DNA from: Flavobacteriaceae bacterium NBU2973
Lineage (GTDB): Bacteria; Bacteroidota; Bacteroidia; Flavobacteriales; Flavobacteriaceae
NCBI GenBank assembly: GCA_026162565.1
Contig: JAOEIQ010000001.1
Span: 186,001-250,000, forward strand
Length of the DNA: 64,000 bases
Direction: 5' to 3'
The position numbers and the translations under genes are program-made. The notes below the pieces were generated by a model that had not been told where the DNA came from, did not search any database, and saw nothing but the letters and a program-made list of their open reading frames with translations. This document shows positions 17,479 through 41,563 of the stretch, piece after piece. Every line of letters starts with the position of its first letter. Position 1 is the stretch's first letter.

Positions 17479-18531
17479 TTATTCTTTTATTTCTATAATA
17501 ACTCCATTAGTGTCTTCCTCTAAAATATTAATTTTAGGTGAGTCATTTTCAACTTTAAAAGTACCAATTGTTACAGGTCTATTTTTATCACCATAATCAA
17601 AATGAGCGGTGTATTTGCCTTTAGAATCCTTTTCATTAATTGTTATTTTTTCAATGAAACTATCATAACACTTATTAACCCATAAAGCCTTAAATTCTTT
17701 GTTTTCGCCTATTTCATTATTAGCATCCTGCATACCTGACATATCTTTAGAAGAGCCATCACCAAATTTATCTATAATCACATCTCCTATTAGGTGATCT
17801 TTTCCTGTAAGATAAATTCCATGTCTATCTGAAGATTTTATGTGCACCTTTTTTATTTGTACATTTTCTGGATTATTATTCCAACCATCAACTGCAAGTG
17901 CGGCATGATAGTTTTTATATTTGTCGCCTCCAGAACCAAGTCCTTCAATTATTAATTCGTTTATGCTTATGTTTTTTGTACCAGCATAAATATGACAGCC
18001 TTGACTTAATAAACCATAAATATTTTTGTCTTTATTAGATTTTATGGTTAAGTCATTAATAGAAATATCGTTAGATTTTCTTGATAAAAATCCTACATAC
18101 GAACTTAAACTACCTTTAAATGTAATATTTTGCGATGGAGTAGAGTCATTTTCAATAATTTGAATAACACCTCCAAATTCAGCATCATCAAACTTTAAAG
18201 TTATATTTTCTCGTCCTTTAATAAAAATAGATGTCTTGTAATACCCTTTAGGGAAACTCATTTCAATTTCTTCGTTTTGAGCTAAATCTAAAATCGTTTC
18301 AATTTTCGATTTTTTACTAAAAGGATGATTGGCCGCATACGCAGAGTCAGGAAATATACCATAACGTCTAACATCACCTACTTTGTAATCTGGATTTAAA
18401 GCATAATCTGAATCGTCGAATGTTTTAACAGCCTCAACCTTATTATCTATAACTTGTTCTTTTTTAGTTGAGTCATTTTTACAAGATGCTATAAAAACAA
18501 TTAATGTTAAAAGTGTAATCAGTTTTTTCAT
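17479..18531 (-). CDS. Parallel beta-helix lipoprotein, copy 1
   Basis: A 350-residue exported lipoprotein: the signal peptide ends in the lipobox IASC (Cys17). The mature part opens with VGDVRRYGIFPD, like the N-terminus of pectate-lyase-type beta-helix proteins. Repeated short strands (ITLKFDDAEFGG, ISINDLTIKSN, ISINELIIEGLG, VQIKKVHIKSSDRHGIYLTG) follow, as in right-handed parallel beta-helices. Such folds bind, cleave or epimerise polysaccharides. No catalytic set can be assigned. It is a clear paralogue of the protein at 19818-20864, and the O-antigen-ligase-like gene lies between them. It may act on the nascent glycan at the periplasmic or outer-membrane face. Confidence 0.7.
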   Translation of the reverse strand: MKKLITLLTLIVFIASCKNDSTKKEQVIDNKVEAVKTFDDSDYALNPDYKVGDVRRYGIFPDSAYAANHPFSKKSKIETILDLAQNEEIEMSFPKGYYKTSIFIKGRENITLKFDDAEFGGVIQIIENDSTPSQNITFKGSLSSYVGFLSRKSNDISINDLTIKSNKDKNIYGLLSQGCHIYAGTKNISINELIIEGLGSGGDKYKNYHAALAVDGWNNNPENVQIKKVHIKSSDRHGIYLTGKDHLIGDVIIDKFGDGSSKDMSGMQDANNEIGENKEFKALWVNKCYDSFIEKITINEKDSKGKYTAHFDYGDKNRPVTIGTFKVENDSPKINILEEDTNGVIIEIKE

Positions 18532-18580: not shown

Positions 18581-19825
18581 CTAATGAGTCATTGTTTCTT
18601 GCTCGTATTTATAAAACAAGAAAATAAAAAAGCTTAAAAAAGCTGTTCCATGGTGTCTTACTAAAAAGGATTCGAATAGACAGGTTATGGTTACACATAA
18701 AACACAATAGAATAGATACGATTTATTTTTGTAGCCATATCTAATAAGTGTAAGGATGATTAGTAAAAAACTTATAAATCCTAAAACACCTGTTTTAATA
18801 TAATCTTCTAGATATTGATTGTGAGCATTAAATTTTTCTTTAATTCCTGCAATAAAATTCAATTTTTTATACTCTTGTTCTAAAGTGGATAAGTAATCTC
18901 CTGTGCCAACTCCAAACACAGGATTCTTCTTTATTATTTTAAGAGAAGCAAGGTTAATCATAACACGTTGCTCAAAGGTGTTTTTTACAAAAGTGATACT
19001 GTTTTTTGTTTTTATGATATCGAGATCTAAATCTGTAGTTTTAATTAAAATATCCGCTTTTTTTCTTAATTCTGGTGAACTGTAAAATCCAATAACACTT
19101 ATAGATAGTCCTAGCGCAACAATTGATAATTTAATCCCTAAATTATAATGATTAAAGTGTTTAATAAAGAAGATGATTAAACAAAACACAAGTATTAATA
19201 AACTTGAACGACTAGATAATATTAAAAGAAAAGCAAGAAGTAATACTGCTAAAAGACTATTAACGATTATATGTGTTTTATTATATAATTGATGCGTTAT
19301 TATCATGATAGCTATCACTAACAACACTCCTATATAGTGCTGACTTATACCAATTTTTTCTAAAGCAAAATGTACTGTTTCTCCAATAGGTCTATCTAAA
19401 ATATAAAACTGATAAAACAGTATATAGAAGATTGTGTATACTAAAGAGAATTTTAAAACATTAAATAATTTTATATAGTAAGATGCCTCAAGTTTTTCAG
19501 ACATAATAATCAAAGGAAGCACCACTAAGGGCGAGAGTCTTGTAATTATGTTTAATCCTCTAGATATATCATCTGTATAAGTAAGCCCAATACATTGAAT
19601 AATAAAGTAAAAAAAGAAAAGGTAGATGAGTTTGTTAGCTCTTACTTTACGAATTTTACTAATAATGTTATCGTGAGTATCTATAAAGAAAAAAAGGGCC
19701 AAAGCTATAATAACTCTAGAGTTCCAATTAAATGTAGTTGGAAACGACAGAATAAACAACGCTAACAAAATAAAATATATTTGCTGTCTGTGTATTCTAG
19801 ATATGTGCTGTCTTAAACTACTCAT
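18581..19825 (-). CDS. O-antigen ligase (WaaL/Wzy_C family)
   Basis: A 414-residue membrane protein with about 11-12 transmembrane segments. The large periplasmic loop holds NPVFGVGTGDYLSTLEQEY and then NAHNQYLEDYIKTGVLGFI, the His-containing signature of WaaL-type ligases and related Wzy_C polymerases. It most likely transfers the finished glycan from undecaprenyl diphosphate to lipid A core, or to protein in a PglL-like role. Family membership is firm but the acceptor is not. I use the ATG at 19825 (MSSLRQHISRIH), overlapping the upstream gene by 8 bases, rather than the TTG nine codons earlier. Confidence 0.82.
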   Translation of the reverse strand: MSSLRQHISRIHRQQIYFILLALFILSFPTTFNWNSRVIIALALFFFIDTHDNIISKIRKVRANKLIYLFFFYFIIQCIGLTYTDDISRGLNIITRLSPLVVLPLIIMSEKLEASYYIKLFNVLKFSLVYTIFYILFYQFYILDRPIGETVHFALEKIGISQHYIGVLLVIAIMIITHQLYNKTHIIVNSLLAVLLLAFLLILSSRSSLLILVFCLIIFFIKHFNHYNLGIKLSIVALGLSISVIGFYSSPELRKKADILIKTTDLDLDIIKTKNSITFVKNTFEQRVMINLASLKIIKKNPVFGVGTGDYLSTLEQEYKKLNFIAGIKEKFNAHNQYLEDYIKTGVLGFISFLLIILTLIRYGYKNKSYLFYCVLCVTITCLFESFLVRHHGTAFLSFFIFLFYKYEQETMTH

Positions 19826-20864
19826 TTTGGGTTTTAAAATGCCTAACGACAATATTTGTTAGGTCGTTAGGTAGCATTTTTATATTAGAATCATTGTTAA
19901 TTATCTGCAAATAATCAATAACTGTAGGTTCTCCTGAAGATCCTTCATCAAAATTCACTGTGTAATTTGCTTTAGAGTTACGGCAATCTATGGTTACGTT
20001 ACTAATTTTTGAATTGTTTAGTTTATTCATCCATAAAGCGGAAATAAATTTTAATTCTTCAGTTTCGGCATCTTCTAGTCCATTATTGTAGTTAATTGTT
20101 CCTAATCCAACTTTTTTAATGAGAAGTTTGTCTATAGAATTATTATTGCCTGTTATATAGACACCATGCCTGTCTGATTTTTCAATAATTGCTTCAGAGA
20201 TATTTATGTATTCTGGATTATTGTCCCATCCATGTATTTGCAAAGCAGCTACAGAGAATTTATAATACTCATCTCCAGATCCTAAATCTTCTACTATTAA
20301 TTTTTTAATGTTAAGGTGTTTTGTACCACCATAAATATTGCACCCTAGACTTCTTTTATTGTAGTTGTTTTTTAGCGTGTCTGATGCTATAATTAAAGTG
20401 TCTATTGAAATATTTTGAGACTTACGAGAAAAGAATTTGTTATACGTTTTTAGAGTGCCTAATAAATTTATGTTACGAGACTCTTTTCCCAATTCATCTT
20501 CAATAATTTGAATTTGCCCAGAAAAAGAAACATTATTAAAATGTATATTAACGTCTTCTCTTCCTTTTAAAATTAAATTAGTATTGTAATGTCCAGTAGG
20601 GAAAGTGATTTCTTGACCCGATTCTGCAAGGTCTAAAATAACATTAATTTTGTTTTTTTTATATTTTTGGTGATTACCAATTTCAATATTAGGAAAAATT
20701 CCATAACGTCTAACGTCTCCTAAAGAATAGCTAGAATCAATAACATACTCTGCCTCATTTATATTGTTTGAGTTATTTAATGGCGTTATTAGATTTTTAT
20801 TCTTCTCATCACATGAAAAAAATAATAATAAAACCAATACAATGTAGTTACTTTTGATAAACAT
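19818..20864 (-). CDS. Parallel beta-helix lipoprotein, copy 2
   Basis: A 348-residue lipoprotein with a short signal peptide ending in LFFSC (lipobox Cys18). It shares with the copy at 17479 the opening GDVRRYGIFP, the segment TKHLNIKKLIVEDLGSG, and SDRHGVYITG in place of SDRHGIYLTG. The same beta-helix build is expected throughout. The start overlaps the acyltransferase gene by 17 bases and the stop overlaps the ligase gene by 8, so it is embedded in the glycan operon. Likely a glycan-binding or glycan-modifying protein anchored in a membrane; the activity is unknown. Confidence 0.7.
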   Translation of the reverse strand: MFIKSNYIVLVLLLFFSCDEKNKNLITPLNNSNNINEAEYVIDSSYSLGDVRRYGIFPNIEIGNHQKYKKNKINVILDLAESGQEITFPTGHYNTNLILKGREDVNIHFNNVSFSGQIQIIEDELGKESRNINLLGTLKTYNKFFSRKSQNISIDTLIIASDTLKNNYNKRSLGCNIYGGTKHLNIKKLIVEDLGSGDEYYKFSVAALQIHGWDNNPEYINISEAIIEKSDRHGVYITGNNNSIDKLLIKKVGLGTINYNNGLEDAETEELKFISALWMNKLNNSKISNVTIDCRNSKANYTVNFDEGSSGEPTVIDYLQIINNDSNIKMLPNDLTNIVVRHFKTQNE

Positions 20865-21579
20865 CTTCGACTAGATTAGGTATATTAACCTTTTCGAGAG
20901 CGACTCTAACATCATCAATGTTTTTTTCAATGAATCTTAATTTTTGGCCTACATACATACCTGGTTCCAATAGGCTTTTTGAAATTGTAGAATTACTTCC
21001 AACTGTAATTCCTTTTTCTATAGTTACGCCAGCATTTACAATGCAATTAGAGCCAATGTAAACGTTGTTTTTAATATTTACCTCTCCATCTATTCTTATT
21101 CTACCATCTCCATGAGTATCATGTATATAACCATGAGTCCATACTTGGGAAGCAGCACCAGCAATAGTAGAAAAATTACCTATGGTTATATTTCTAGTTA
21201 AATCTATAGTATGCCTTGCAGTGATTTTAGCTAACTCGCCTAATTTTAAAACAGCATCTCCATAAGTTACACCCAAAGGTGCTCTTGAGATAATATTGGA
21301 GTTACCAATTGCTCCTCTAGCACAAAAATCCATTGCAAAAGGACCTTTTATTATGTTTAAATGACCTATATAAGCTCTTTTGGCAAGTTTAATTGAGTTA
21401 ATTTTTATAATGTTAAAGTGACCAATTTTAGTAAATTCATCTAAATTTAATGTGTTTACTAAAAGAATAGAAAATCCAATTTTAACAGACCAACTTACCT
21501 TATGACCTATCATTTTTAAAAATAATACAGCTATTTTACTCGGCAACAAACAAAAAAGAGCTGTTAATAGTCTTTTCAT
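20848..21579 (-). CDS. Left-handed beta-helix acyltransferase (243 aa)
   Basis: The protein has hexapeptide-repeat strands (VYIGSNCIVNAGVTIEKGITVGSNSTI) and a hydrophobic N-terminus (LLTALFCLLPSKIAVLFLKMIG). This pattern is that of membrane-associated O- or N-acyltransferases that decorate sugars, usually with acetyl from acetyl-CoA. The central part with THGYIHDTHGDGRI differs from typical WbbJ/CysE proteins, and the acceptor is unknown. Its N-terminal 60 residues match the remnant at 24292-24477, showing that a second copy once existed in this locus. It follows the next acyltransferase gene by one base. Confidence 0.75.
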   Translation of the reverse strand: MKRLLTALFCLLPSKIAVLFLKMIGHKVSWSVKIGFSILLVNTLNLDEFTKIGHFNIIKINSIKLAKRAYIGHLNIIKGPFAMDFCARGAIGNSNIISRAPLGVTYGDAVLKLGELAKITARHTIDLTRNITIGNFSTIAGAASQVWTHGYIHDTHGDGRIRIDGEVNIKNNVYIGSNCIVNAGVTIEKGITVGSNSTISKSLLEPGMYVGQKLRFIEKNIDDVRVALEKVNIPNLVEDVYQK

Positions 21580-21580
21580 A

Positions 21581-22087
21581 TTAATCGGCTTTTAAGTTTC
21601 TATTTCTTGCTCCAACAATTATAGCATTTTCAGGAACATCTTTAGTAATAACTGCACCAGCACCTATCAAGGCATTTTTATGTATGGTAACTCCTGCTAA
21701 AACTAATGCGTTCGCGGCTATCCAAACTCCATCTTCAATAACAATTGGTTTAGAATAATGTTTGTAAGGTGGAGGTTTTGATAAATCTAATGCAGCTGTC
21801 TCAACCATAACGCTACGTGAAAGAGTCACGTTATCGCCAATTTTTATGGGTGATTTAGCGCCTAAACAACTATTTGGCCCAATAGCAACACCATTACCAA
21901 TGGTAATGTTTTTTCCGTATTTAATTTCTGTACTATAGTGACAAACACTATTCCCAGAATTTGGAATTAAAGCTTTAAACCTAAAATGACTCCATATTCT
22001 AGAGTAAACCCAATATAATTTTATAAAAAAAAGTGCCATCCATTTTATGAGTAATAATTTTGATAGCCATCTTATAATTTTTTTCAT
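21581..22087 (-). CDS. Hexapeptide-repeat acetyltransferase (WbbJ/LbH type)
   Basis: A 168-residue protein with hexapeptide repeats: YGKNITIGNGVAIGPNS, IGDNVTLSRSVMVETA and IEDGVWIAANALVLAGVTI, ending in GAGAVITKDVPENAIIVG. The last part is the standard CoA-site and C-terminal turn of WbbJ/maltose-O-acetyltransferase-like enzymes. The N-terminus (residues 1-30) is hydrophobic. It probably O-acetylates a sugar of the glycan using acetyl-CoA. It overlaps the dioxygenase-like gene start by 4 bases. Confidence 0.85.
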   Translation of the reverse strand: MKKIIRWLSKLLLIKWMALFFIKLYWVYSRIWSHFRFKALIPNSGNSVCHYSTEIKYGKNITIGNGVAIGPNSCLGAKSPIKIGDNVTLSRSVMVETAALDLSKPPPYKHYSKPIVIEDGVWIAANALVLAGVTIHKNALIGAGAVITKDVPENAIIVGARNRNLKAD

Positions 22088-24486: not shown

Positions 24487-25794
24487 CTATCTTAAAATAT
24501 CATTAAACGCCTCTGTCAATAATTCTATGTTTTTATTAGACATACAATTAGAATCTGTATAAGGATCAGATATAACACCTTTATAACTAGTTTTGTTTAA
24601 AATGTTAATGAAATTAATTTTATCACCTATAGTAAGATTGATATGGTTTTTAGATTTGACCTGATTAACAACTTCATTTAATTGATTGTTTATATCATCT
24701 ATAAAGATACAATTTTTAGCTTGATTGTTTATAGTTTTTATAAGAGTTGCCACAGGTTTATTGCTTAATACACACTCAATCGCTATAGTTCCTGTAACTG
24801 TTATTACCAAATCTACTTTAGGGAGTACATTATCCATTTTGGAACCATGTAGTAAATGTTTGATTTTTGAGTTGTTTTTAACCAAATCTAATAATTCTGG
24901 TGTTAATTCATATTTAGATTTAGGGTTAGGTTTAACATATAATACCTCATCATCTTTCAAAGCGTTAGCCAATAATTTAATAAGCTCTGTTTGGTCTCTA
25001 TGTTTGCGCCCCCAGACATCTATATTAGCTTCAGGTTGCATTTGAAGAGGATATAATATTTTAAACTTATTGTCTTCAGAAACAGTTTCAAAAGCATTTT
25101 CGTCCCACTTAATTATATTATACTTTTTATCCTTTTCAATCTTGTATTTTACAATTGGATTTGGTGTGTTATAAACTTCCCCTTCAGCATAGGAGTATAT
25201 TTTTTTTACTTGATCTTTAAGAATATCTATTTTAGAAATTGGAGCAGCTTTCATATAATCTGGCGCAACTTTTCTATAAATAATTTGATCTATAACTTGT
25301 TTTGCGTCCTCATTATTAAGAGTTTCCCCACTTCCTTTGTATGGTATAAGTGAATCGTATTGATAAAATGAAAAGCGACCTATTGGATAACGACAAGTAG
25401 AAGGATTTAAATATAAAATTCCTTGTTGCTTACAATTAGTAATTGTTAATAGTTCATGGAAAGCTGTTGATTCTCCAAAAACTACATCAGGTTTAACTTG
25501 TTCTAAAATTTTTCTTATCTCATTATTATAATAATAGAAGTAAGTTTTGTCAACTTTTTTAAAATGGTTTTGTTGCCTATCACTTTTAATAATATCTTCA
25601 ACAAAAGGATCTTTAGTATATCCGTTTATTCTGTTTTTTGGATATTTTATTATATGAAAAGTATTATTGTTTTTAGGCAAAAATTGTTTGTTTTGAACAA
25701 TCCAATGAATAGTATAGCCGTTTGAGCTTAAATTATTAGCTATAGCCTCAAAAAAATACGTTTTATGTCTATTCTCAACAAAAAGTAATGTCAT
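24487..25794 (-). CDS. Capsule-type GT-B glycosyltransferase, candidate pseudaminic acid transferase
   Basis: A 435-residue protein with a GT-B-like plan. The N-terminal half starts TLLFVENRHKTYFFEAIANNL and the C-terminal half has DLVITVTGTIAIECVLSNKPVAT. The GT-x-x-x-E segment is typical of capsule polysaccharide synthesis proteins of the KpsC/KpsS type. It lies directly after the pse genes (1-base gap to pseI), so it is my candidate for the enzyme that uses the CMP-activated nonulosonate. That assignment is position-based only. The truncated acyltransferase follows 9 bases later. Confidence 0.6.
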   Translation of the reverse strand: MTLLFVENRHKTYFFEAIANNLSSNGYTIHWIVQNKQFLPKNNNTFHIIKYPKNRINGYTKDPFVEDIIKSDRQQNHFKKVDKTYFYYYNNEIRKILEQVKPDVVFGESTAFHELLTITNCKQQGILYLNPSTCRYPIGRFSFYQYDSLIPYKGSGETLNNEDAKQVIDQIIYRKVAPDYMKAAPISKIDILKDQVKKIYSYAEGEVYNTPNPIVKYKIEKDKKYNIIKWDENAFETVSEDNKFKILYPLQMQPEANIDVWGRKHRDQTELIKLLANALKDDEVLYVKPNPKSKYELTPELLDLVKNNSKIKHLLHGSKMDNVLPKVDLVITVTGTIAIECVLSNKPVATLIKTINNQAKNCIFIDDINNQLNEVVNQVKSKNHINLTIGDKINFINILNKTSYKGVISDPYTDSNCMSNKNIELLTEAFNDILR

Positions 25795-25795
25795 T

Positions 25796-26842
25796 CTATA
25801 AGCCTTCGATCATTTCTAGGGTTAATGGTTCGCCTCTTTCTATATTAGATATAAACTTCTTTCCGAGTATTTTATTGTAATACTTTGGATGTAACCCATA
25901 ACCAGGTCTAATTGAACGAATGTTTTCTTTGGTTAAAATATCTCCTTTTTTTACATCCTCGACAACAAAAAGCGATCTAGCAAATTTTCTATTTTTCTTT
26001 ACTTTTTCAGAAATATCATACGATACTTTCCCTAAAAGTTTTTCAGTGTCTCTAACTTTAGACACCATTTCAGTAAATTCTGTCACATCGAGAGAAAAAT
26101 CAGCATCTGGCCCTCCAACAGATTTATCTAAAATAAAATGTTTTTCAATAATTCTAGCTCCTAATGTTACAGCTATTGTTGGAGCTAACGAACCATATGT
26201 ATGATCACTAAAACCTACTTCAACACCAAATCTGTTTTTTAAATCTGGAATTGTATTAAGGTTCGCTAAATCTAATGGTGCTGGATAAGAAGATGTACAC
26301 TTTAAAAGAATAATATCAGTATTACCTACTTTTTTACAAGTTTCAACAGCTAAATTAATATCCTCTTCTTCTGCAATTCCAGTAGACATGATTATAGGTT
26401 TGCCTTTTGAAGCTGCATACTCTATTAATGGTATGTCTTGAATCTCAAAAGAGGCAATCTTATAAGCTGGAACATTTAATGATTCTAAAAAATCTACAGC
26501 TGTAAAATCAAATGGTGAAGAAAAACAGATTAAACCTTCTTCTTCGGCAACCTCAAAAAGTTTTTTATGCCATTCCCAAGGAGTGTAAGCTTCTCCATAT
26601 AATTCATGGAGTGATTTACCATCCCATAAGGTTCCTCCGTCAATTTTAAAATAATCCTTATCGCAATCTATAGTTAATGTGTCTGGAGTATACGTTTGAA
26701 GTTTTATAGCGTCTGCACCTGTTCGTTTTGCTGCTCTAATAGTTTCTATTGCTACCTCTAAATCGCCATTATGATTCGCTGATAATTCTGCAATTATAAA
26801 ACACGGATTATCTCCGCCTATAGTTTTATTTCCTATTTTCAT
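25796..26842 (-). CDS. pseI: Pseudaminic acid synthase (NeuB family)
   Basis: A 348-residue enzyme condensing phosphoenolpyruvate with the 6-deoxy-AltdiNAc-type hexose to give the nine-carbon acid. NeuB motifs are present: FIIAELSANHNGD near the start, DAIKLQTYTPDTLT, IMSTGIA, LLKCTSSYPAP and GFSDHT. The C-terminal antifreeze-like (SAF) domain has IRPGYGLHPKYYNKILGKK. YFKIDGGTLWDGKSLHELY favours the PseI rather than the NeuB or LegI branch. I use the ATG at 26842, overlapping pseG by 17 bases, instead of the TTG at 26866. Confidence 0.9.
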   Translation of the reverse strand: MKIGNKTIGGDNPCFIIAELSANHNGDLEVAIETIRAAKRTGADAIKLQTYTPDTLTIDCDKDYFKIDGGTLWDGKSLHELYGEAYTPWEWHKKLFEVAEEEGLICFSSPFDFTAVDFLESLNVPAYKIASFEIQDIPLIEYAASKGKPIIMSTGIAEEEDINLAVETCKKVGNTDIILLKCTSSYPAPLDLANLNTIPDLKNRFGVEVGFSDHTYGSLAPTIAVTLGARIIEKHFILDKSVGGPDADFSLDVTEFTEMVSKVRDTEKLLGKVSYDISEKVKKNRKFARSLFVVEDVKKGDILTKENIRSIRPGYGLHPKYYNKILGKKFISNIERGEPLTLEMIEGL

Positions 26843-28715
26843 TTGTAAATCTATTTCCTTTAACAAAAGTACACTTTTCTGTTCTTATATCTATTAGCTC
26901 TACTAAACCGTTCTGCGCTTTTACTATAATATTTGGTTCTGTTTCAATAATTTCGCCATCAATTAAATTATCTAATTGACTAGAATCTAAAATTGCAACT
27001 TTATCTATAATAATTTTATCTCCATCATAAAAAGTAAATGCGCCTGGATAAGGATGAGCTTGTGCTCTTACCCAATTTTTTATAGCTTCTTTTGTCCAAC
27101 TCCAATTAATTTCACCATCTAAAGGTGTTCTTTTTCCAAAATATGTGGCTTCATCTTCATTTTGACTTACAAGATTTAAGTTATTAGAAGAAATATCACT
27201 TAAAACTTGTTGAACAAGCGGATAATATTTGCTAGCATATTTTTCAAGCATAATTGCCCCTGTGTCTTCTTCCAGAATAGGGACTTCTATTTGATGAATT
27301 ATTGTACCTGTATCGCAACCCGAATCTATAACGTGAGCTGTGATTCCTGCTTTTGTTTCTCCATTAATTATAGACCAAACATGTGGAGTTCTGCCTCTAT
27401 ATTTAGGCAAAAGAGACCCATGAATATTAAAAGTTAAAACATTGGCGTGTTTTATTATATCGTTTTCTATTAAAAAAAGGTAATTAATTGATGCTATAAC
27501 ATCTACGCTAAAGCTTTTAATAAATTCATAGCCTTTTCCATTTCTTGGGTTACCTATGTATATTGGTATATTGTTTGCTTCAGCCAAATCAATAATACCT
27601 TGAGATTTTTTATCTGTAAAAATAAATTGAATATTATAATCCTTAACCATTTTAGATAAAGTATCTAAACCTAAACCTCCACTACAAAGTACTCCAATTG
27701 TAAGCATAGTTTTGTTAATTAAATTTAAGTGTCTTGAAGCTATTTTATTGTCAAATAATATTTTTTGAGCATTAATCTTTTCTTCATAGTCAGAATTTTC
27801 TAATATCTTTTTTACTCGTAAAGTAAAATCTTTTGCGTTATAGTTTTTAAAATTACTGCCTTTATAAATTGCTTGATTATCTGTGAACCCTTTATAAATT
27901 AATTCTTGATTATCTACATAAAAACCACTTAAAATAGGTATCTTAAAACATGACAGTTCGTACAAGATAGTACTGGCAGGCGCAATAGCAAAATTACAGT
28001 GTTTCATTACACTTACTAATTCTTCTTCTGATAAGTTTTTATGAAGTTTAATAACTTGGGAGTATTCCTCTTGCAAACTAAAAATATCTTGATGCTTGTA
28101 GGCTCCGCCAAGGACAACATGTATATTCTTAAATTCTGGTATTTGCAATAAACCTTCTACAGCTTTTTGAGTAAGATTATAAGGATCTGCTCCTCCAAAA
28201 CAAACAAAAGCCGAGTCTATCTTATTAATTTTACTTTCTTTTTTTGCTTGTTCAAGAAATAAAGGTCTTAATAATGCATATTGAGTACCAAGAGCTAATG
28301 CTGTGTAAGGTTCTTTCGTGTAGTGCTCCTCTTTTAAATAAGGAGAGTGGTTTATCACTACATCAGCATACATATGCTCTTTGGCTAAATCATCTATATA
28401 AATTAATTTATATCCTTTTTCTTTTACTGATTTCTGATATTTTGAATCAAATTGATAGCCATCTGCTATAACTAAGTGTTTTTGAGGACTAAAATTTGAC
28501 AAAAGCCAATTTGGTTCTTCTGCAATTGTAATTTCTTTGGGAATAATAGATTTGTGATAGCGATTTGGTATTACAGAAGCAGTAGATGTTTCGTGAGTTA
28601 AAAAAATAAACTCAATAGACTCTTTTACAATTTCTACTAAACTAAATAACCTGTATAGATGACCTAATCCTGTTGTAGAACTACCATCTGCCCTAAAGAT
28701 TATTTTCTTGGTCAT
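26826..28715 (-). CDS. pseG: PseG UDP-sugar hydrolase fused to an N-formyltransferase domain
   Basis: A 629-residue two-domain protein. Residues 1-335 are PseG: FRADGSSTTGLGHLYRL with the catalytic-type His19, VCFGGADPYNLT, and CNFAIAPASTILYELS. PseG removes UDP from the altrose intermediate. Residues 337-629 are a formyltransferase of the methionyl-tRNA/ArnA type: VLTFNIHGSLLPKYRGRTPH with Asn430 and His432, and HVIDSGCDTGTI with Asp468, the complete N-H-D triad for 10-formyl-tetrahydrofolate chemistry. FGKRTPLDGEINW and PYPGAFTFYDG of the C-terminal subdomain are also present. No pseH is nearby, so this domain probably formylates the amine that PseH would acetylate. The start overlaps pseF by 23 bases. 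Confidence 0.9.
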   Translation of the reverse strand: MTKKIIFRADGSSTTGLGHLYRLFSLVEIVKESIEFIFLTHETSTASVIPNRYHKSIIPKEITIAEEPNWLLSNFSPQKHLVIADGYQFDSKYQKSVKEKGYKLIYIDDLAKEHMYADVVINHSPYLKEEHYTKEPYTALALGTQYALLRPLFLEQAKKESKINKIDSAFVCFGGADPYNLTQKAVEGLLQIPEFKNIHVVLGGAYKHQDIFSLQEEYSQVIKLHKNLSEEELVSVMKHCNFAIAPASTILYELSCFKIPILSGFYVDNQELIYKGFTDNQAIYKGSNFKNYNAKDFTLRVKKILENSDYEEKINAQKILFDNKIASRHLNLINKTMLTIGVLCSGGLGLDTLSKMVKDYNIQFIFTDKKSQGIIDLAEANNIPIYIGNPRNGKGYEFIKSFSVDVIASINYLFLIENDIIKHANVLTFNIHGSLLPKYRGRTPHVWSIINGETKAGITAHVIDSGCDTGTIIHQIEVPILEEDTGAIMLEKYASKYYPLVQQVLSDISSNNLNLVSQNEDEATYFGKRTPLDGEINWSWTKEAIKNWVRAQAHPYPGAFTFYDGDKIIIDKVAILDSSQLDNLIDGEIIETEPNIIVKAQNGLVELIDIRTEKCTFVKGNRFTNENRK

Positions 28716-29400
28716 GATTTAACATAAGGTTAAATTTTATTTCTGCTAATTTCCAGTCTGTTTCTGTGTCAATATCTTGAGCATGCAACTCTGATATGAT
28801 TATTGCTCCAGAATTATTAGTAAACAATTTCTTTTCTTTAGTAAAAGTTGTTTCATTTAACCAATAAAACTGACCAGAATCATGATATCTCGGTTCCAAA
28901 TCTTGAGACCTAGAGTTTAAATGATCAGGCCATACCATAGAAACTTTATTAGAATTCATTTTTAGAGATCTCTGTATTGGAAAAGAAAACTCCAAAACCG
29001 GAAAAACACTATCAAAATTATTTTCTTTTAGTTTTATATAAGCCTCTTCTAACTTTTCTGACGTAATAAAAGGTGCTGTAGGTAAAATACAGCATATGCT
29101 TTCAAACTTTTTTTTATTTTCTGAGTACTTATCCAGTACTTCACTAACAACATCAGCTAATACAGCAAAATCGTTAGCATTATCTGCACTTCTTAAAAAG
29201 GGAACTTTTGCACCATATTGAATAGCTATTTGTGCAATGTCTTTATCATCTGTAGAGACCATAACCTCATCAAAAAGCTCACTTTTTAATGCTGCCTCAA
29301 TAGAATAAGCTATAATTGGTTTACCCAAAAACGGTTTTATGTTTTTTTTAGGAATACGTTTACTACCTCCTCTTGCTGGTATAATTGCTAGATTAGCCAT
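28693..29400 (-). CDS. pseF: CMP-pseudaminic acid cytidylyltransferase
   Basis: A 235-residue NTP-transferase that activates the nonulosonate with CTP. The N-terminal nucleotide motif is AIIPARGGSKRIPKKNI, followed by PFLGKPIIAYSIEAA and VSTDDKDIAQIA. CCILPTAPF, and YHDSGQFYWLN near the C-terminus, match the PseF branch of the NeuA/PseF/LegF family. Its end overlaps pseG and its start overlaps pseC by 8 bases, within the pseB-C-F-G-I order. Confidence 0.9.
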   Translation of the reverse strand: MANLAIIPARGGSKRIPKKNIKPFLGKPIIAYSIEAALKSELFDEVMVSTDDKDIAQIAIQYGAKVPFLRSADNANDFAVLADVVSEVLDKYSENKKKFESICCILPTAPFITSEKLEEAYIKLKENNFDSVFPVLEFSFPIQRSLKMNSNKVSMVWPDHLNSRSQDLEPRYHDSGQFYWLNETTFTKEKKLFTNNSGAIIISELHAQDIDTETDWKLAEIKFNLMLNHDQENNL

Positions 29401-30538
29401 TAGAGTAAGTTAGTACTTTTTCTATAACAAATTGCTGTTCCTCTTCTGTAAGTGTTGGATACATTGGTAAGCTAATACATTTAGAGTAGTAATTTTCTGC
29501 CACTTTTAAATCAGCAGCATCATAACCAATTTCTTTGTAATAAGGCAACGTATGTACAGGAATATAATGTATTTGAGCAAAAATATTATGCGATTTTAAA
29601 TAGTCGTATAAGCCTTTTCTGTCTTCTACTTCTATAACAAATAAGTGATGTGCATTATACATCCCTTTTGGCAAGCTTTGGTATTTCATTTTACCCTTAA
29701 ATGCTTGCTTATATGTTTCAGAGATTTTATTTCTTTTTAAAACGCCCTCTTTGTTTTTCGATAACTGTGTGATGCCTAAAGCTGATTGTATATCGGTAAG
29801 TCTATAATTATAGCCTAAAGCTTGCATTTCATAAAACCAACCTCCATGATCCTCACTCATGTTTTCTTTGGTTATACCATGTGTTCTTAAATAAGATAGC
29901 TTTTCATAAATGGCTTTAGAATTAGTAGTTACCATACCTCCTTCTCCGCAAGCAATATGTTTTACTGGGTGAAAAGAAAAAATGCCTATCTCTGCATATT
30001 TACCATTACCGCACATTTGTTTTTCTCCTTTAGAATCTGTAAAAAATCCACCTGGAGCATGGCATGCATCTTCAATAATCCATAAATCATGTTTATCTGC
30101 TAATTCTCTAAAAGCTTCAAGATTTACAGGTAAGCCTGCAAAATCTACAGGAATAATACCTTTAAAAAACCCTTTAGGCTTGCTTTCTATAAGCTTTTTA
30201 GTACTTTCTAATGATAATGTATATGTTTCTGGATCAATATCAGCAAACCATACTTCTCCGCCAGCATATCGAACACAATTAGCAGAAGCAGCAAATGTAA
30301 TTGGTGTTGTAATAACACGCTCATTTGGTTTTAAATCTAAAGCCAAAACAGCTATATGCAATCCAGCAGTAGCATTAGAAACAGCAACCGCATATTTTAC
30401 ACCAATATATTCTGCGAATTTTTCTTCAAACTCTCGAACCTTTGGGCCTTGAGTTAAAAAATCTGCGGTTAAAGTTTCGATTACAGCATCTATATCTGTT
30501 TGATCTATATGTTGTCTTCCGTATGGTATTGCTTGCAT
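29393..30538 (-). CDS. pseC: UDP-4-amino-4,6-dideoxy-N-acetyl-altrosamine transaminase
   Basis: A 381-residue PLP-dependent DegT/DnrJ/EryC1-family aminotransferase, second step of pseudaminic acid synthesis. It converts the 4-keto sugar made by PseB to the 4-amino sugar using glutamate. The PLP lysine is Lys193 in FSFHPVKHIACGEGG. Other family marks are SNATAGLHIA (54-63), EDACHAPGG (156-164) and NYRLTDIQSALG. The opening IPYGRQHID is characteristic of PseC. It starts 2 bases after the pseB stop. Confidence 0.93.
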   Translation of the reverse strand: MQAIPYGRQHIDQTDIDAVIETLTADFLTQGPKVREFEEKFAEYIGVKYAVAVSNATAGLHIAVLALDLKPNERVITTPITFAASANCVRYAGGEVWFADIDPETYTLSLESTKKLIESKPKGFFKGIIPVDFAGLPVNLEAFRELADKHDLWIIEDACHAPGGFFTDSKGEKQMCGNGKYAEIGIFSFHPVKHIACGEGGMVTTNSKAIYEKLSYLRTHGITKENMSEDHGGWFYEMQALGYNYRLTDIQSALGITQLSKNKEGVLKRNKISETYKQAFKGKMKYQSLPKGMYNAHHLFVIEVEDRKGLYDYLKSHNIFAQIHYIPVHTLPYYKEIGYDAADLKVAENYYSKCISLPMYPTLTEEEQQFVIEKVLTYSNG

Positions 30539-30540
30539 TA

Positions 30541-31560
30541 TTATACAGTGAAATTAGGATCTACATGCTCTTTAATAAGTTTTCTTAAACTATCAACTGT
30601 CTCCCAGTCGTCATTTTCTCCAGAATTATAACTAAATCCTAACGGAACTTTTTTAGCATTGAATGTTTGTTTAAACTCTTCTAAACTCCATTTATGAGTT
30701 GCTGGTAAAATAGTATAATATTTACCCAAATCATACGTATAGAATGAATCTGATGGTGTAATCATTTCTTCATGAACTTTCTCTCCTGGTCTTATACCTA
30801 TAACTGGTTTTTCGCAATTTGGACCGATTGCTTCAGCAACATCCATGATTTTATATGAAGGGATTTTAGGTACAAACAATTCTCCTCCCCAAGCATGCTC
30901 TAAAGCATGCATAACCATATCAACGCCTCCTTGTAACGAAATGTTAAATCGTGTCATGTTTGGATCTGTAATTGGTAATTTACTTTCTTCTTTCTTTTTA
31001 TTAATAAAGAATGGAATAACAGAACCATTAGATCCCATTACATTACCATATCTAACAACAGAAAATCTTATTGGGTTTTCGCCCTTAATATTGTTAGCGG
31101 CAATAAATAATTTATCCGAAGTTAATTTTGTTGCTCCATAGAGATTTATTGGAGCACAAGCTTTATCGGTGGAAAGTGCTACCACTCGTTCTACTTTTGT
31201 TTTAAAACAAGCATCCACTACATTTTCTGCACCACCAATGTTAGTTTTTATACATTCGTCTGGATTGTACTCTGCTATGTGTACATGTTTCATGGCTGCG
31301 GCATGAATTACATAATCAACTCCTTGAAAAGCTCTTTCTAAACGTTCCTTGTCTCTTACGTCTCCTATAAAATAACGAAGTTGAGGATGTTTATTCCCAG
31401 GAAACTCTTGAGCCATTTGAAACTGCTTCTGTTCATCTCTAGAATAAATAACAAGTCGTTTAATCTCTGGATGTTTATTTAAAATATGTTTTGTGAGTGC
31501 TTTACCTAATGATCCTGTTCCTCCAGTTATAAGTAATGATTTTCCTTTTAAATTGAGCAT
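30541..31560 (-). CDS. pseB: UDP-N-acetylglucosamine 4,6-dehydratase (inverting)
   Basis: A 339-residue short-chain dehydrogenase. It dehydrates UDP-GlcNAc and inverts C5, the first step to pseudaminic acid. NAD motif TGGTGSLGKA at 12-21. The catalytic set is Asp132, Lys133 (STDKA) and Tyr141 with Lys145 (YGATK), the same residue numbers I recall for Helicobacter pylori FlaA1. RDEQKQFQMAQEF is typical of the PseB branch. I use the ATG at 31560, because the longer frame starts at a TTG that overlaps the promoter at 31586-31615. First gene of the pse part of the leftward operon. Confidence 0.95.
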   Translation of the reverse strand: MLNLKGKSLLITGGTGSLGKALTKHILNKHPEIKRLVIYSRDEQKQFQMAQEFPGNKHPQLRYFIGDVRDKERLERAFQGVDYVIHAAAMKHVHIAEYNPDECIKTNIGGAENVVDACFKTKVERVVALSTDKACAPINLYGATKLTSDKLFIAANNIKGENPIRFSVVRYGNVMGSNGSVIPFFINKKKEESKLPITDPNMTRFNISLQGGVDMVMHALEHAWGGELFVPKIPSYKIMDVAEAIGPNCEKPVIGIRPGEKVHEEMITPSDSFYTYDLGKYYTILPATHKWSLEEFKQTFNAKKVPLGFSYNSGENDDWETVDSLRKLIKEHVDPNFTV

Positions 31561-31585
31561 GTAAATTATTTTATAGTATGTGCTG

Positions 31586-31615
31586 CAAAAATACAATAAT
31601 TATAAACCTAAACAA
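31586..31615 (-). promoter_or_regulatory. Promoter of the pseB-led operon (-33 and -7)
   Basis: Read on the minus strand: TTG (31613-31615), a 19-base spacer, then TATTTTTG (31586-31593), 25 bases before the pseB ATG. This is a full match to the Bacteroidetes consensus with the same spacing as the promoter at 4855. It probably starts the transcript for pseB and many genes downstream of it. Confidence 0.7.
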
Positions 31616-37974: not shown

Positions 37975-39228
37975 TTACAAAATCATACCAGCAGCTACAG
38001 TTTCATTGGTAGAATCATCTATTAAAATAATACTTCCTGTTGCTCTATTCTCTCTATAAGTATCTATCATTAATGGTTGAGTTGTGCGAATTTTAACTTT
38101 ACAAATATCATTCATTTTTAAAACCTTATCATCATAATTTCTCTTAAGATCATTAATATCTATTTTGTAGATAACATCTTTAATGATTGCTTTCTGAATA
38201 TTTGTTGTGTGTAAAATAGAGTATTTAATTTTAGGTTTTGCATTTTCATTATTAAGCCAACACAACATTACTTCAATCTCTTTTTCTATTTTAGGTTGGT
38301 TATTTAAGCGAACTATCATATTTCCTCTGCTAACATCTAAATCGTCTTCTAAAGCTATTGAAACTGACATGGGAGCATGTGCCTCTACTAATTGATTATC
38401 ATATAGCATTATTGATTTAATTTTAGAAATAAGACCAGAAGGCAAGACTTTAACCTCATCATTTACTCTAAAAACTCCACTAGATATCTTTCCTGCGTAT
38501 CCTCTATAATATCTATATTTTTCATTTTGAGGTCTTAATGCAGTTTGTACAGGAAAACGCGCATCTACTTTATTAATATCGCTACTGATATGTAATGTTT
38601 CTAACATATGTAATAAAGGTGAGCCTTGATACCAATTCATGTTGATAGAACGTTTAACAACATTGTCACCTAACAATGCACTTATTGGGATAAATCGAAT
38701 ATCTTTTACTAATAATTTAGATGAAAACTCTTCAAACTCTTCAATGATTTTGTTAAAAAATTTTTCTTCATAATTAACTAAATCCATCTTATTTATGCAA
38801 ACTAAAATGTGTGGTATTTGCAATAGAGAAGCAATAAAAGCATGGCGTTTTGTTTGCTCAACTACTCCTCGTCTTGCATCTATTAGTATTAAGGCTACAT
38901 TAGCTGTTGATGCTCCAGTTACCATATTTCTTGTATATTGAATATGTCCTGGTGTATCAGCTATAATGAATTTTCGCTTAGGTGTAGTAAAGTATCTATA
39001 CGCTACATCAATTGTAATGCCTTGCTCTCTTTCATCTCTTAGACCATCTGTAAACATTGCTAAATCAACTTCTTGAATACCTTTCCTTGAGCTAGTCTTT
39101 TTTATTTCTTCTAATTGATCTTGAAAAATAGATTTTGAGTCATACAATAAGCGACCTATGAGTGTACTCTTACCATCATCTACGCTGCCTGCGGTTGTAA
39201 ATCGTAATAATTGATTATTATTTAACAT
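37975..39228 (-). CDS. cysN: Sulfate adenylyltransferase, GTPase subunit
   Basis: A 417-residue EF-Tu-like GTPase that with CysD makes adenylylsulfate from sulfate and ATP. G motifs: GSVDDGKST (14-22), DTPGHIQYTRNM and CINKMDLVNYE. The EF-Tu-like barrel domains follow. Length fits a stand-alone CysN without the fused APS kinase seen in NodQ/CysNC, in line with a separate cysC upstream. Last gene of the M23-GH3-cysQ-C-D-N operon, 2 bases after cysD. Confidence 0.95.
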   Translation of the reverse strand: MLNNNQLLRFTTAGSVDDGKSTLIGRLLYDSKSIFQDQLEEIKKTSSRKGIQEVDLAMFTDGLRDEREQGITIDVAYRYFTTPKRKFIIADTPGHIQYTRNMVTGASTANVALILIDARRGVVEQTKRHAFIASLLQIPHILVCINKMDLVNYEEKFFNKIIEEFEEFSSKLLVKDIRFIPISALLGDNVVKRSINMNWYQGSPLLHMLETLHISSDINKVDARFPVQTALRPQNEKYRYYRGYAGKISSGVFRVNDEVKVLPSGLISKIKSIMLYDNQLVEAHAPMSVSIALEDDLDVSRGNMIVRLNNQPKIEKEIEVMLCWLNNENAKPKIKYSILHTTNIQKAIIKDVIYKIDINDLKRNYDDKVLKMNDICKVKIRTTQPLMIDTYRENRATGSIILIDDSTNETVAAGMIL

Positions 39229-39230
39229 AC

Positions 39231-40136
39231 TTAAAAATAGCCTTGTTTTTTTCGGTCTTCCATCGCTGTTTCAGAACGCTTATCATCACTTCTATTACCT
39301 CTTTCCGTTTGTCTCATTTTCGAAATCTCTAAAATAATTTTTTCTATAGTGTCTGCATGAGATTCAATTCCTCCAGTAATGGTTATATCTCCTAATGTTC
39401 TAAAACGAACTTTTTTTGTTAAAATTTCTTCATGGTTTTCTAAAATTAGATATTCAGAATAAGGAATCCAAGAGTTGTTTCTCCATAATACTTGACGATC
39501 ATGAGAAAAATAAAGTGATGGTATGTCTATTTTCTCTCTTTTTATATAATTCCAAATATCCATTTCTGTCCAATTACTAATTGGAAAAACTCTAAAATGT
39601 TCGCCTTCAAAATATTTTCCATTAAATAAACTCCAAAGTTCTGGTCGTTGATTTTTTGGATCCCATTGACCAAAATCGTCACGATGAGAAAAAAATCTTT
39701 CTTTAGCTCTTGATTTTTCTTCATCTCTCCTCCCTCCTCCAATTGCGCAATCAATTTTATTAGTCTCTATTGTGTTTAATAAAGTTGTAGTTTGCAAGGC
39801 ATTTCTAGTGGCATTCTTTCCTTTTTCTTCTGTAACCTCTCCTTTTTCTATAGATTCCTGAACCGACCCAACAATTAAATTCACATCTAATTTATGTACT
39901 AATTCGTCTCTAAATTTGATAGTTTCTGGGAAATTATGACCCGTGTCAATATGCAGTAATGGGAATGGTATTTTACATGGATAGAATGCTTTTTTTGCTA
40001 GATGAGTCATTACAATCGAATCTTTTCCGCCAGAAAATAAGAGAACTGGGTTTTGAAATTGAGCATAAACTTCTCGCAAAATATAAATCGCTTCACTTTC
40101 TAACTCATCTATATAGTTTAAATAATATTTACTCAT
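39231..40136 (-). CDS. cysD: Sulfate adenylyltransferase, small subunit
   Basis: A 301-residue PP-loop ATP pyrophosphatase of the PAPS-reductase-like fold. The P-loop is SGGKDS (35-40). HIDTGHNFPETIKFRDE, GGGRRDEEKSRAKER and FPISNWTEMDIWNYI are CysD signatures. It forms the heteromeric ATP sulfurylase with CysN. There is a 2-base gap to both neighbours. Confidence 0.96.
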   Translation of the reverse strand: MSKYYLNYIDELESEAIYILREVYAQFQNPVLLFSGGKDSIVMTHLAKKAFYPCKIPFPLLHIDTGHNFPETIKFRDELVHKLDVNLIVGSVQESIEKGEVTEEKGKNATRNALQTTTLLNTIETNKIDCAIGGGRRDEEKSRAKERFFSHRDDFGQWDPKNQRPELWSLFNGKYFEGEHFRVFPISNWTEMDIWNYIKREKIDIPSLYFSHDRQVLWRNNSWIPYSEYLILENHEEILTKKVRFRTLGDITITGGIESHADTIEKIILEISKMRQTERGNRSDDKRSETAMEDRKKQGYF

Positions 40137-40138
40137 GT

Positions 40139-40732
40139 TTAGATGCTTAATTTGGGTTTTATAAAGCTCATAATTTTATCTACTGCTAAATCAACACTTT
40201 CTTCTTCAGTTTTAATAACAATATCAGGATTTAGAGGTACTTCATAGGGTGAGGATAATCCTGTCATGTTGGTGATTTCTCCCTTTTTAGATTTTTTATA
40301 TAACCCTTTTACGTCTCGCCTTTCACATTCAAATAATGAGGTGTCAACAAATACTTCAATAAAGTTTTTAGCTTGAACAGTTGCTTTAACATTTTCTCTA
40401 TCTTTTCTGTAAGGAGATATAAAAGCAGCTATTACAATTAAACCAGCATCAATCATTAGCTTCGACACTTCTGCAACTCGTCTAATATTTTCTTTTCTAT
40501 CATTTGGAGAAAAAGATAAATCTTTATTTAAGTTTTTTCGAATATTATCTCCGTCTAAAACATATGTTTTGAATTTTTGGTTATGCAATTTCTCTTCTAA
40601 AGCATTAGCAATTGTTGATTTTCCAGAACCAGACAATCCAGTAAACCAGATTAAAAAAGAGTTGTGTTCATTTAACTTTCTTCTATCTGTTACAGAGGTT
40701 TTATAACTGTGCTTTTTAATATTTGTTGACAT
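40139..40732 (-). CDS. cysC: Adenylylsulfate kinase
   Basis: A 197-residue P-loop kinase phosphorylating APS to PAPS. Walker A is GLSGSGKST (32-40). LDGDNIRKNLNKDLSFS and FISPYRKDRENVK bind APS, and FVDTSLFECERRDVKGLYKK is typical. Its presence shows that the cell makes PAPS. It lies between cysD and cysQ. Confidence 0.96.
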   Translation of the reverse strand: MSTNIKKHSYKTSVTDRRKLNEHNSFLIWFTGLSGSGKSTIANALEEKLHNQKFKTYVLDGDNIRKNLNKDLSFSPNDRKENIRRVAEVSKLMIDAGLIVIAAFISPYRKDRENVKATVQAKNFIEVFVDTSLFECERRDVKGLYKKSKKGEITNMTGLSSPYEVPLNPDIVIKTEEESVDLAVDKIMSFIKPKLSI

Positions 40733-40750
40733 AACTTCTTGTTTAAAAAG

Positions 40751-41563
40751 CTAATTAAAAACTGATTTTTGTGAAGATACTATAAACTTAGAATTTAGCA
40801 AGTTTTCTTTATTATAAAGCATTGCTTTGTTTGTGTCTAATGATATAACTTCTATATTAACAGCATTGCATATTGCATGTCCTGCGGCAGTATCCCATTC
40901 CATTGTTGGAGCATAGCGTGGGTATATATCTGCCTCTCCATCTGCAATTAAGCAAAATTTTAATGAGCTTCCCTTCGAAATTATTTTAATATTTTTATTT
41001 TTAGATTTTAACGTTTCAATAAAGTTTTTTGTATCATCGTTTAAATGGGATCTACTACTAACTACTCTTATTGTATCACTAATTTTTTTTCCTTGTTTAA
41101 GTGGTAATGTATTATTTAGAACTTCACTTATTGAAGAATCATGTCTATTAAGTTTAGCTTTATAAGCTGTTTTAGTTGTTACATCTCCAAAAAACAGAGT
41201 TTTAGTAGTTGGTGCATAAATTACTCCTAATAAAGGTTTTTTGTTCTCTATTAAAGCTATATTAACAGTAAACTCTCCATTTTTTTTAATAAACTCTTTT
41301 GTTCCATCTAAAGGATCTACAATCCAGCAAGTTTGCCAATTTTTTCTCTCACTATAGGATTTTTCGTTATTTTCTTCACTAATTATTGGTGTATTAGTTG
41401 ATTCTAAAAAAAAATTAATAATGTTGTTTGCTCTTCTATCTGCTTCTGTTAAAGGGGATTTATCTTCCTTATAATCTACAATAAAGTTCGAATTATATAT
41501 CTCCATTATAGCTTCCCCAGCTTTTAGCGCAGCTTTAATAGCTGTTTCTAAATTCTTATTCAT
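40751..41563 (-). CDS. cysQ: 3'(2'),5'-bisphosphate nucleotidase
   Basis: A 270-residue Mg-dependent phosphatase of the inositol monophosphatase family. It removes the 3' phosphate from PAP or PAPS and so keeps sulfur flux open. Metal motifs: WIVDPLDGTKEFIK and MEWDTAAGHAI, with EADRRAN upstream. I use the ATG at 41563, 8 bases inside the GH3 gene, rather than the TTG two codons earlier. Confidence 0.92.
   Translation of the reverse strand: MNKNLETAIKAALKAGEAIMEIYNSNFIVDYKEDKSPLTEADRRANNIINFFLESTNTPIISEENNEKSYSERKNWQTCWIVDPLDGTKEFIKKNGEFTVNIALIENKKPLLGVIYAPTTKTLFFGDVTTKTAYKAKLNRHDSSISEVLNNTLPLKQGKKISDTIRVVSSRSHLNDDTKNFIETLKSKNKNIKIISKGSSLKFCLIADGEADIYPRYAPTMEWDTAAGHAICNAVNIEVISLDTNKAMLYNKENLLNSKFIVSSQKSVFN

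Follow-up and report, generated by a model that had tools for sequence, protein, structure and literature searches.

A predicted PseG-formyltransferase chain and the exchange of acyl modules among pseudaminate loci of Bacteroidota

A fused gene within a pse locus

In Helicobacter pylori, PseH acetylates the C4 amine that PseC leaves on a UDP-L-altrose sugar, as described in the available part of the source (PMC4363471). Here, we analyze a pse locus in which a formyltransferase (FT) is fused to PseG and very probably takes the place of PseH. This locus lies in a stretch of 64,000 nucleotides from Flavobacteriaceae bacterium NBU2973 (assembly GCA_026162565.1, contig JAOEIQ010000001.1, positions 186,001 to 250,000; hereafter the window, to whose numbering coordinates refer unless another locus is named), and has the gene order pseB-pseC-pseF-[pseG-FT]-pseI.

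The pseG-FT gene occupies 26826..28715 on the minus strand, and the plus strand of this interval contains many stops and is closed. A reading of the sequence alone, made before this analysis (the sequence-only reading), had described one 629-residue frame that joins PseG to an FT with an Asn430-His432-Asp468 triad, and this description was confirmed by open reading frame (ORF) calling, NCBIfam, Pfam, alignment and the predicted structure. The PseG part comprises residues 1-334 (27714..28715), of which residues 4-273 match TIGR03590 with 180.2 bits, above the curated cut-off of 153.55; within its GxGH motif, His19 is aligned with chain position His17 of Campylobacter jejuni PseG (3hbm), which we take to be the catalytic residue. 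The FT part comprises residues 335-629 (26826..27713) and has the N and C domains of an ArnA-type enzyme, with Formyl_trans_N at 396-494 (84.7 bits) and Formyl_trans_C at 531-627 (59.3 bits), both above the Pfam cut-offs. The triad is complete in the alignment (Asn430 at 27426..27428, His432 at 27420..27422 and Asp468 at 27312..27314). An AlphaFold2 model of the fusion, built from an alignment of 29 sequences, had a mean predicted local distance difference test score (pLDDT) of 91 and a predicted template modeling score (pTM) of 0.67, and Foldseek matched it to the FT domain of ArnA (2bln; TMt 0.88, 2.2 Å) and to C. jejuni PseG (3hbn; TMt 0.80). The likeness to the C. jejuni enzyme lies in the N-terminal half; the C-terminal module here is a formyltransferase.

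The remaining pse genes are also on the minus strand. They encode the inverting 4,6-dehydratase PseB (30541..31596; TIGR03589, 498.2 bits), the C4 aminotransferase PseC, which makes the presumed FT substrate (29393..30538; TIGR03588, 451.9 bits), the CMP-pseudaminate synthetase PseF (28693..29400; TIGR03584, 309.5 bits), whose gene shares 23 bp with the start of the fusion gene, and the pseudaminate synthase PseI (25796..26866; TIGR03586, 523.3 bits), whose gene overlaps its 3' end. The set of pseB, C, F, G and I genes that had been named from the sequence is therefore all present, each above its curated NCBIfam cut-off, and PseC is the sole sugar aminotransferase recognized within the locus. 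The next gene downstream is Capsule_synth-like (24487..25794, minus strand; PF05159, 22.2 bits, cut-off 20) and possibly encodes a transferase that uses the pathway product.

The FTs of pse loci constitute one clade (17 of 41 rows in the FT tree, support 100/99) that is separate from ArnA, from Fmt and from a family of short FTs. All 17 members have the complete triad and the motif HGSLLPKYRGRTPHVW; in L192 (loci and genomes are designated by L and G numbers), a member of the clade that was added later, the motif is HGSCLPKYRGRTPHVW. The FT half might be a relative of ArnA or methionyl-tRNA formyltransferase that has decayed or lacks catalytic activity, a reading that we consider very improbable: the short FTs of other pse loci have indeed lost the triad Asn, but the triad is complete in the window FT and in all 17 clade members of the tree, 74 columns are invariant across 14 FT sequences, and the ArnA fold is well predicted.

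The FT domain of ArnA is the best match in both sequence and fold, and shares the N and C domains and the Asn-His-Asp triad. ArnA is a UDP-L-Ara4N formyltransferase and acts on the C4 amine of this UDP-bound 4-amino-L-sugar. It differs from the window chain in having its own UDP-glucuronate dehydrogenase domain and an arn operon setting, and its motif is RAPLNW where the pse FT clade has RTPHVW. The model for ArnA proper, NF005998, gave 180.1 versus 777 bits and matched the FT part alone, so the chain is not a full bifunctional ArnA. Searches of plasmid records (401 and 393 matches) gave no clear clade member among the 20 and 50 matches listed, many of which are without annotation; the best identity among those listed was 35.5%, and the annotated ones were mostly ArnA, Fmt-like, PurN or non-ribosomal peptide synthetase/polyketide synthase (NRPS/PKS) proteins.

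Exchange of formyltransferase and GNAT modules across Bacteroidota

The genomes searched comprised 397 of the family, 395 of the phylum (PseG model), 395 of the order plus 395 of the phylum (FT profile), and 296 of the order (profile for GNAT', a GNAT-fold protein that is considered below). Together with three named records, these searches yielded 100 pse or pse-like regions, the window included, of which 88 were classified and 12 were dropped because PseI was absent from the stretch or PseG was weak or missing. Because the loci were selected by searching for PseG, FT and GNAT', the proportions given here do not represent prevalences, and a few genomes contribute more than one locus (for example, L147 and L156 overlap, both come from G565 and each has its own PseG).

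Among the 77 loci that contain PseG and PseI, a GNAT is found in 46 (35 fused to PseG and 11 within 1 kb), an FT of the clade in 16 (2 fused and 14 separate), and neither in 15. The loci that have GNAT' but lack PseG divide into five with FT and six with GNAT. An FT together with a GNAT that is fused or within 1 kb was found in 0 of the 88 classified loci. A Fisher test gave p 2e-8, with kinship among loci disregarded. The sequence-only reading had proposed checking that pseH is gone whenever the FT occurs, and in the 77 PseG loci the 16 with FT and the 46 with GNAT indeed show zero overlap.

The exchange can also be followed in the PseG tree, a quick tree of 81 rows with SH-aLRT support only, in which 14 rows are labeled FT, 40 are labeled GNAT and 27 carry neither label. 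At least 8 changes between FT and GNAT occur among the 54 labeled rows, and sister groups with differing modules include L103 (FT) and L105 (GNAT), L068 (FT) and L111 (GNAT), L106 (FT) and L110 (GNAT), and the window with L100 and L101 (FT) and L102 (GNAT), with SH-aLRT values of 83 to 96 across the differing pairs. In addition, the PseG-GNAT fusions resemble the window chain in their PseG N-terminal half and in the position of the module, since FT and GNAT modules of fused forms both start right behind one shared PseG C-terminal stretch. The occurrence of differing modules on sister PseGs and the common attachment point therefore indicate that PseG stayed constant while the acyl module was exchanged, and the mutual exclusion of FT and GNAT, along with their at least 8 alternations, leads to the conclusion that the FT very probably replaces PseH.

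FT hits of ~225 amino acids in GNAT loci were considered as candidates that might break this exclusion (L114 6442-7590, L119 6151-6834, L120 9428-10108, L125 6324-7019, L128 4411-5106, L135 9941-10627 and L143 5920-6615, all in or near pse loci). These short proteins lie on a separate branch and have V, I or C in place of the triad Asn, and they were therefore left out of the FT count. They have an FT fold and mostly coexist with GNAT; the best Protein Data Bank (PDB) match of the one in L119 is 1zgh.

Of the 15 loci with neither module, five (L115, L116, L142, L153 and L159) were read for genes beside PseG. In L153 (5246-6928) and L159 (7987-9666), both counted as having neither, a carbamoyltransferase-like gene, called by Pfam in L153 and by likeness in L159, is situated between pseG and pseI, in the place of GNAT or FT.

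Acetyltransferases of the genome and the proposed formylation step

The window chain likely catalyzes two steps of CMP-pseudaminic acid synthesis, with the FT half N-formylating the C4 amine in PseH's place, so that the product would be the CMP-activated form of 5-acetamido-7-formamido-tetradeoxy-L-glycero-L-manno-nonulosonate (CMP-Pse5Ac7Fo). In the proposed pathway, PseB and PseC would generate UDP-4-amino-4,6-dideoxy-L-AltNAc, and the C-terminal ArnA-type FT would transfer a formyl group from 10-formyl-tetrahydrofolate, a donor predicted from family and fold, to the C4 amine, the step for which PseH uses acetyl-CoA. The N-terminal PseG half would then cleave UDP from the 2-acetamido-4-formamido sugar, after which PseI would add pyruvate and PseF would activate the product to CMP-Pse5Ac7Fo. 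The FT substrate, the product and any benefit of a single chain are inferred.

There is precedent for such chemistry. PseJ (PDB 6ci2, 6ci4, 6ci5 and 6edk; name from PDB) is an Anoxybacillus enzyme that formylates the PseC product, UDP-4-amino-4,6-dideoxy-L-AltNAc, instead of the acetylation by PseH, and it resembles the window FT in this proposed reaction; it differs in that its chains have 192-217 residues, whereas the window FT additionally carries a C-terminal domain and is joined to PseG. The statement in the sequence-only reading that 7-formamido pseudaminic acids are known agrees with the report of Pse5Ac7Fo from Pseudoalteromonas distincta KMM 638, in the part of that source available (PMC3210612). 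Similarly, the accessible portion of a paper on Geobacillus describes islands in which PseH is missing and, at another point, some strains that have formyltransferase genes (PMC5109656). The nonulosonate cluster of Halorubrum sp. PV6 also contains a predicted formyltransferase gene, HrrPV6_1050, but this is an archaeon with a legionaminic acid pathway and a formyl group at N5, and the excerpt of the source at hand mentions no fusion (PMC6137143).

The absence of a GNAT-type PseH from the window, as claimed from the sequence, was borne out: none was recognized by reading ORFs of at least 90 amino acids, and a profile built from pse-locus GNATs gave no match at E < 1e-6 in positions 12000-44000, the part to which it was applied. 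Across the genome, no match exceeded the TIGR03585 cut-off of 93.1 bits and 11 fell below it (best 51.6). This curated model was dropped as a test of absence because two PseG-fused GNATs of relatives themselves scored only 33.4 and 43.1 bits; thus, the search for a PseH elsewhere returned none above the cut-off, but the model is too weak to carry the claim of absence. It was supplemented by our own pse-locus GNAT profile, a GNAT tree and a conservation test. In a tree of 69 GNATs, 7 of the 11 hits from the genome were placed, none of them in a supported group with PseG-fused GNATs, with deep branches that are weak. The best GNAT of the genome (C29:17946-18470) scored 64 bits on the pse-locus profile and is present in 27 of 31 genomes tested, its own included, and it is therefore a core gene.

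Several observations weigh against formylation of the PseC product. The 1-kb limit on GNAT distance was our own choice, and among the 11 separate nearby GNATs only five cluster with the PseG-fused GNATs in the GNAT tree, which is weak at its deep forks; five lie outside the fused-GNAT group and one was absent from the tree. In 5 of the 16 loci with PseG and FT (L068, L103, L151, L154 and L192), a GNAT is located 2.9-7.2 kb away; the distant GNAT of L068, L103 and L151 is of a type that also accompanies the PseG-GNAT fusion in L105, and therefore its role in these three loci is probably different, and those of L154 and L192 lie near a second PseC-like gene. The FT profile aligned to PseJ with 66 bits over only 102 of 289 positions, and to ArnA with 180 bits over 263, at a similar number of bits per aligned position. 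The window also contains two genes for hexapeptide (LbH) acetyltransferases, at 20848-22087, whose best NCBIfam scores are 34.3 and 77.3 bits, all below cut-off. Some hexapeptide acetyltransferases N-acetylate UDP-4-amino sugars. Within locus stretches of limited length, relatives of the first are found in 6 of 16 PseG and FT loci versus 3 of 46 PseG and GNAT loci, and relatives of the second in 3 of 16 versus 4 of 46. Furthermore, five strong DegT-type aminotransferase genes are present in the genome besides pseC, so that an attempt to fix the substrate by a lack of other sugar aminotransferases failed, and these genes may provide other amino sugars that an FT could use. Finally, a promiscuous acetyltransferase encoded elsewhere in the genome may act at the PseH step, and the accessible part of a study of Caulobacter describes this step as redundant or promiscuous (PMC7591256).

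Such observations could be explained if the FT acts on a different amino sugar while another acetyltransferase, either an unlinked GNAT, of which the genome has several, or a window hexapeptide enzyme, acetylates the PseC product to give Pse5Ac7Ac. This explanation is unlikely, because PseC is the only sugar aminotransferase recognized in the locus, the FT clade takes the position that a GNAT has in sister loci, with the two never observed together, and the best GNAT of the genome is a core gene. The hexapeptide enzymes are not a regular partner of the FT, since relatives of the first are lacking from 10 of the 16 FT loci and those of the second from 13 in the stretches examined, although the first is somewhat more common there; these counts slightly lowered our confidence in formylation at the PseH step and slightly raised the weight given to a different substrate. 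The formylation and Pse5Ac7Fo product proposed in the sequence-only reading are thus supported by the mutual exclusion and exchange of FT and GNAT, with the identity of the product still a prediction, but that reading had neither weighed the hexapeptide pair nor named the PseJ precedent. The sugar chemistry is already known, and the replacement of PseH by formylation has a precedent in PseJ; new, as far as searched, are the PseG-FT chain, a clade of ArnA-type FTs dedicated to pse loci and the recurrent exchange of GNAT and FT.

Origin of the fusion and a possible second slot

The fusion is rare, and the adjacency of pseG and FT is common; Aquimarina acroporae, for example, has the two genes side by side. 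A fused PseG-FT frame occurs in 2 of the 397 family genomes (the window and L099 of G332), and only 1 of 14 genomes in the genus of G332 (six of the 14 are at least 90% complete) has any match. L066, L067 and L068 gave near full-length tblastn matches that were considered as further fusions, but ORF calling resolved two adjacent genes in each. No report of a PseG-formyltransferase fusion was found in the open-license PubMed Central literature, which was covered mostly at listing level.

In L100 and L101, which are the closest to the window, pseG and FT are separate ORFs in different frames that overlap by 7 bp, and the window has one extra base relative to L100 in an A/T-rich stretch just upstream of the FT start codon. 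The extra base merged the two overlapping frames, and the FT start codon persists within the joint frame, where it encodes Met337 (27705..27707). These same features would be expected if the fusion were an assembly or sequencing frameshift and the real state were overlapping pseG and FT genes. This explanation is rather unlikely, since fusions of this kind do arise: L099 has its own fused frame, without the FT start codon, and in the FT tree it is placed beside L109, a relative in which the genes are separate. PseG-GNAT fusions are, moreover, common. L099 and the window lie in different places in the FT tree, each beside a relative with separate genes, and we read this pattern as at least two fusions of an adjacent pseG and FT pair, with an assembly error possible for the window. 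As for the earlier claim that both steps are on one chain, the fused frame is real as sequence, but it is rare and might reflect such an error. A frameshift would be compatible with formylation at the PseH step, a proposal that stands independently of whether the fusion is real.

There is also a group of 11 pse loci without PseG that carry GNAT', a GNAT-fold protein of ~185 amino acids, in PseG's place (L112 8706-9269, L117 8563-9129, L118 891-2342, L189 9168-9725, L191 9071-9622, L220 7517-8071, L221 7405-8418, L222 8087-8644, L223 7878-8435, L224 7463-8479 and L225 7544-8104). GNAT' is fused to FT in L118 and to another GNAT in L221 and L224. No PseG above the cut-off was found in the 11 genomes (best 23.3 bits; G413 is 88% complete), and no locus in this set was seen to contain both GNAT' and PseG. 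Ranked by E-value, the first Foldseek hit for a GNAT' model is the PseH of H. pylori (4ri1), with spermidine acetyltransferases close behind, some of them at a higher TM-score. GNAT' is without the RG-containing acetyl-CoA loop, which is kept in all five pse-locus GNATs aligned. GNAT' is thus a candidate replacement for PseG.

These data allow a tentative proposal, one that we regard as possible but doubtful as a whole, that pseudaminate synthesis in Bacteroidota has two exchangeable slots, fused or separate, one for UDP release and the other for the acyl group. The UDP-release slot might be filled by PseG, or by GNAT' as a second, unrelated UDP-sugar hydrolase, and the acyl slot by a PseH-type GNAT, an ArnA-type formyltransferase or perhaps a carbamoyltransferase. 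The replacement of PseH by the FT is the well-supported part of this proposal, and the function of GNAT' as a hydrolase is a candidate assignment based on its genomic place, its mutual exclusion with PseG and searches that returned no PseG above the cut-off. The PseG-FT chain of the window is one of four slot combinations seen.

An extended pse cassette was also observed in L105 (483-7506) and L223 (8442-11893), with parts in L068, L103, L112, L151 and L220. It begins with pseC, after which come another GNAT and genes for proteins like aldo/keto reductases, SpsF cytidylyltransferase and glutamate-semialdehyde aminomutase, and then pseG or GNAT'; the names were assigned by reading and the parts vary by locus (for example, L112 is without the extra GNAT). 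In the window, sulfate-activation-like genes (CysN, CysD, CysC and CysQ-like, by reading only) adjoin the polysaccharide locus at 37975-41569 and suggest a sulfated glycan, and two similar lipoprotein-like paralogues, also named by reading, lie within that locus at 17479-18531 and 19818-20864.

From annotations such as 'PseG' and 'formyltransferase-like', the analysis derives a prediction about the cell surface: strains with members of the FT clade should carry Pse5Ac7Fo, not Pse5Ac7Ac. The clade also offers a marker by which formylated pseudaminates could be located, and the PseG-FT chain is a candidate single-chain enzyme for their production. Because GNAT and FT have repeatedly replaced each other while PseG stayed the same, the acyl group looks like the variable, exchangeable part of this sugar, and such variation could matter for recognition by phages, predators or hosts.

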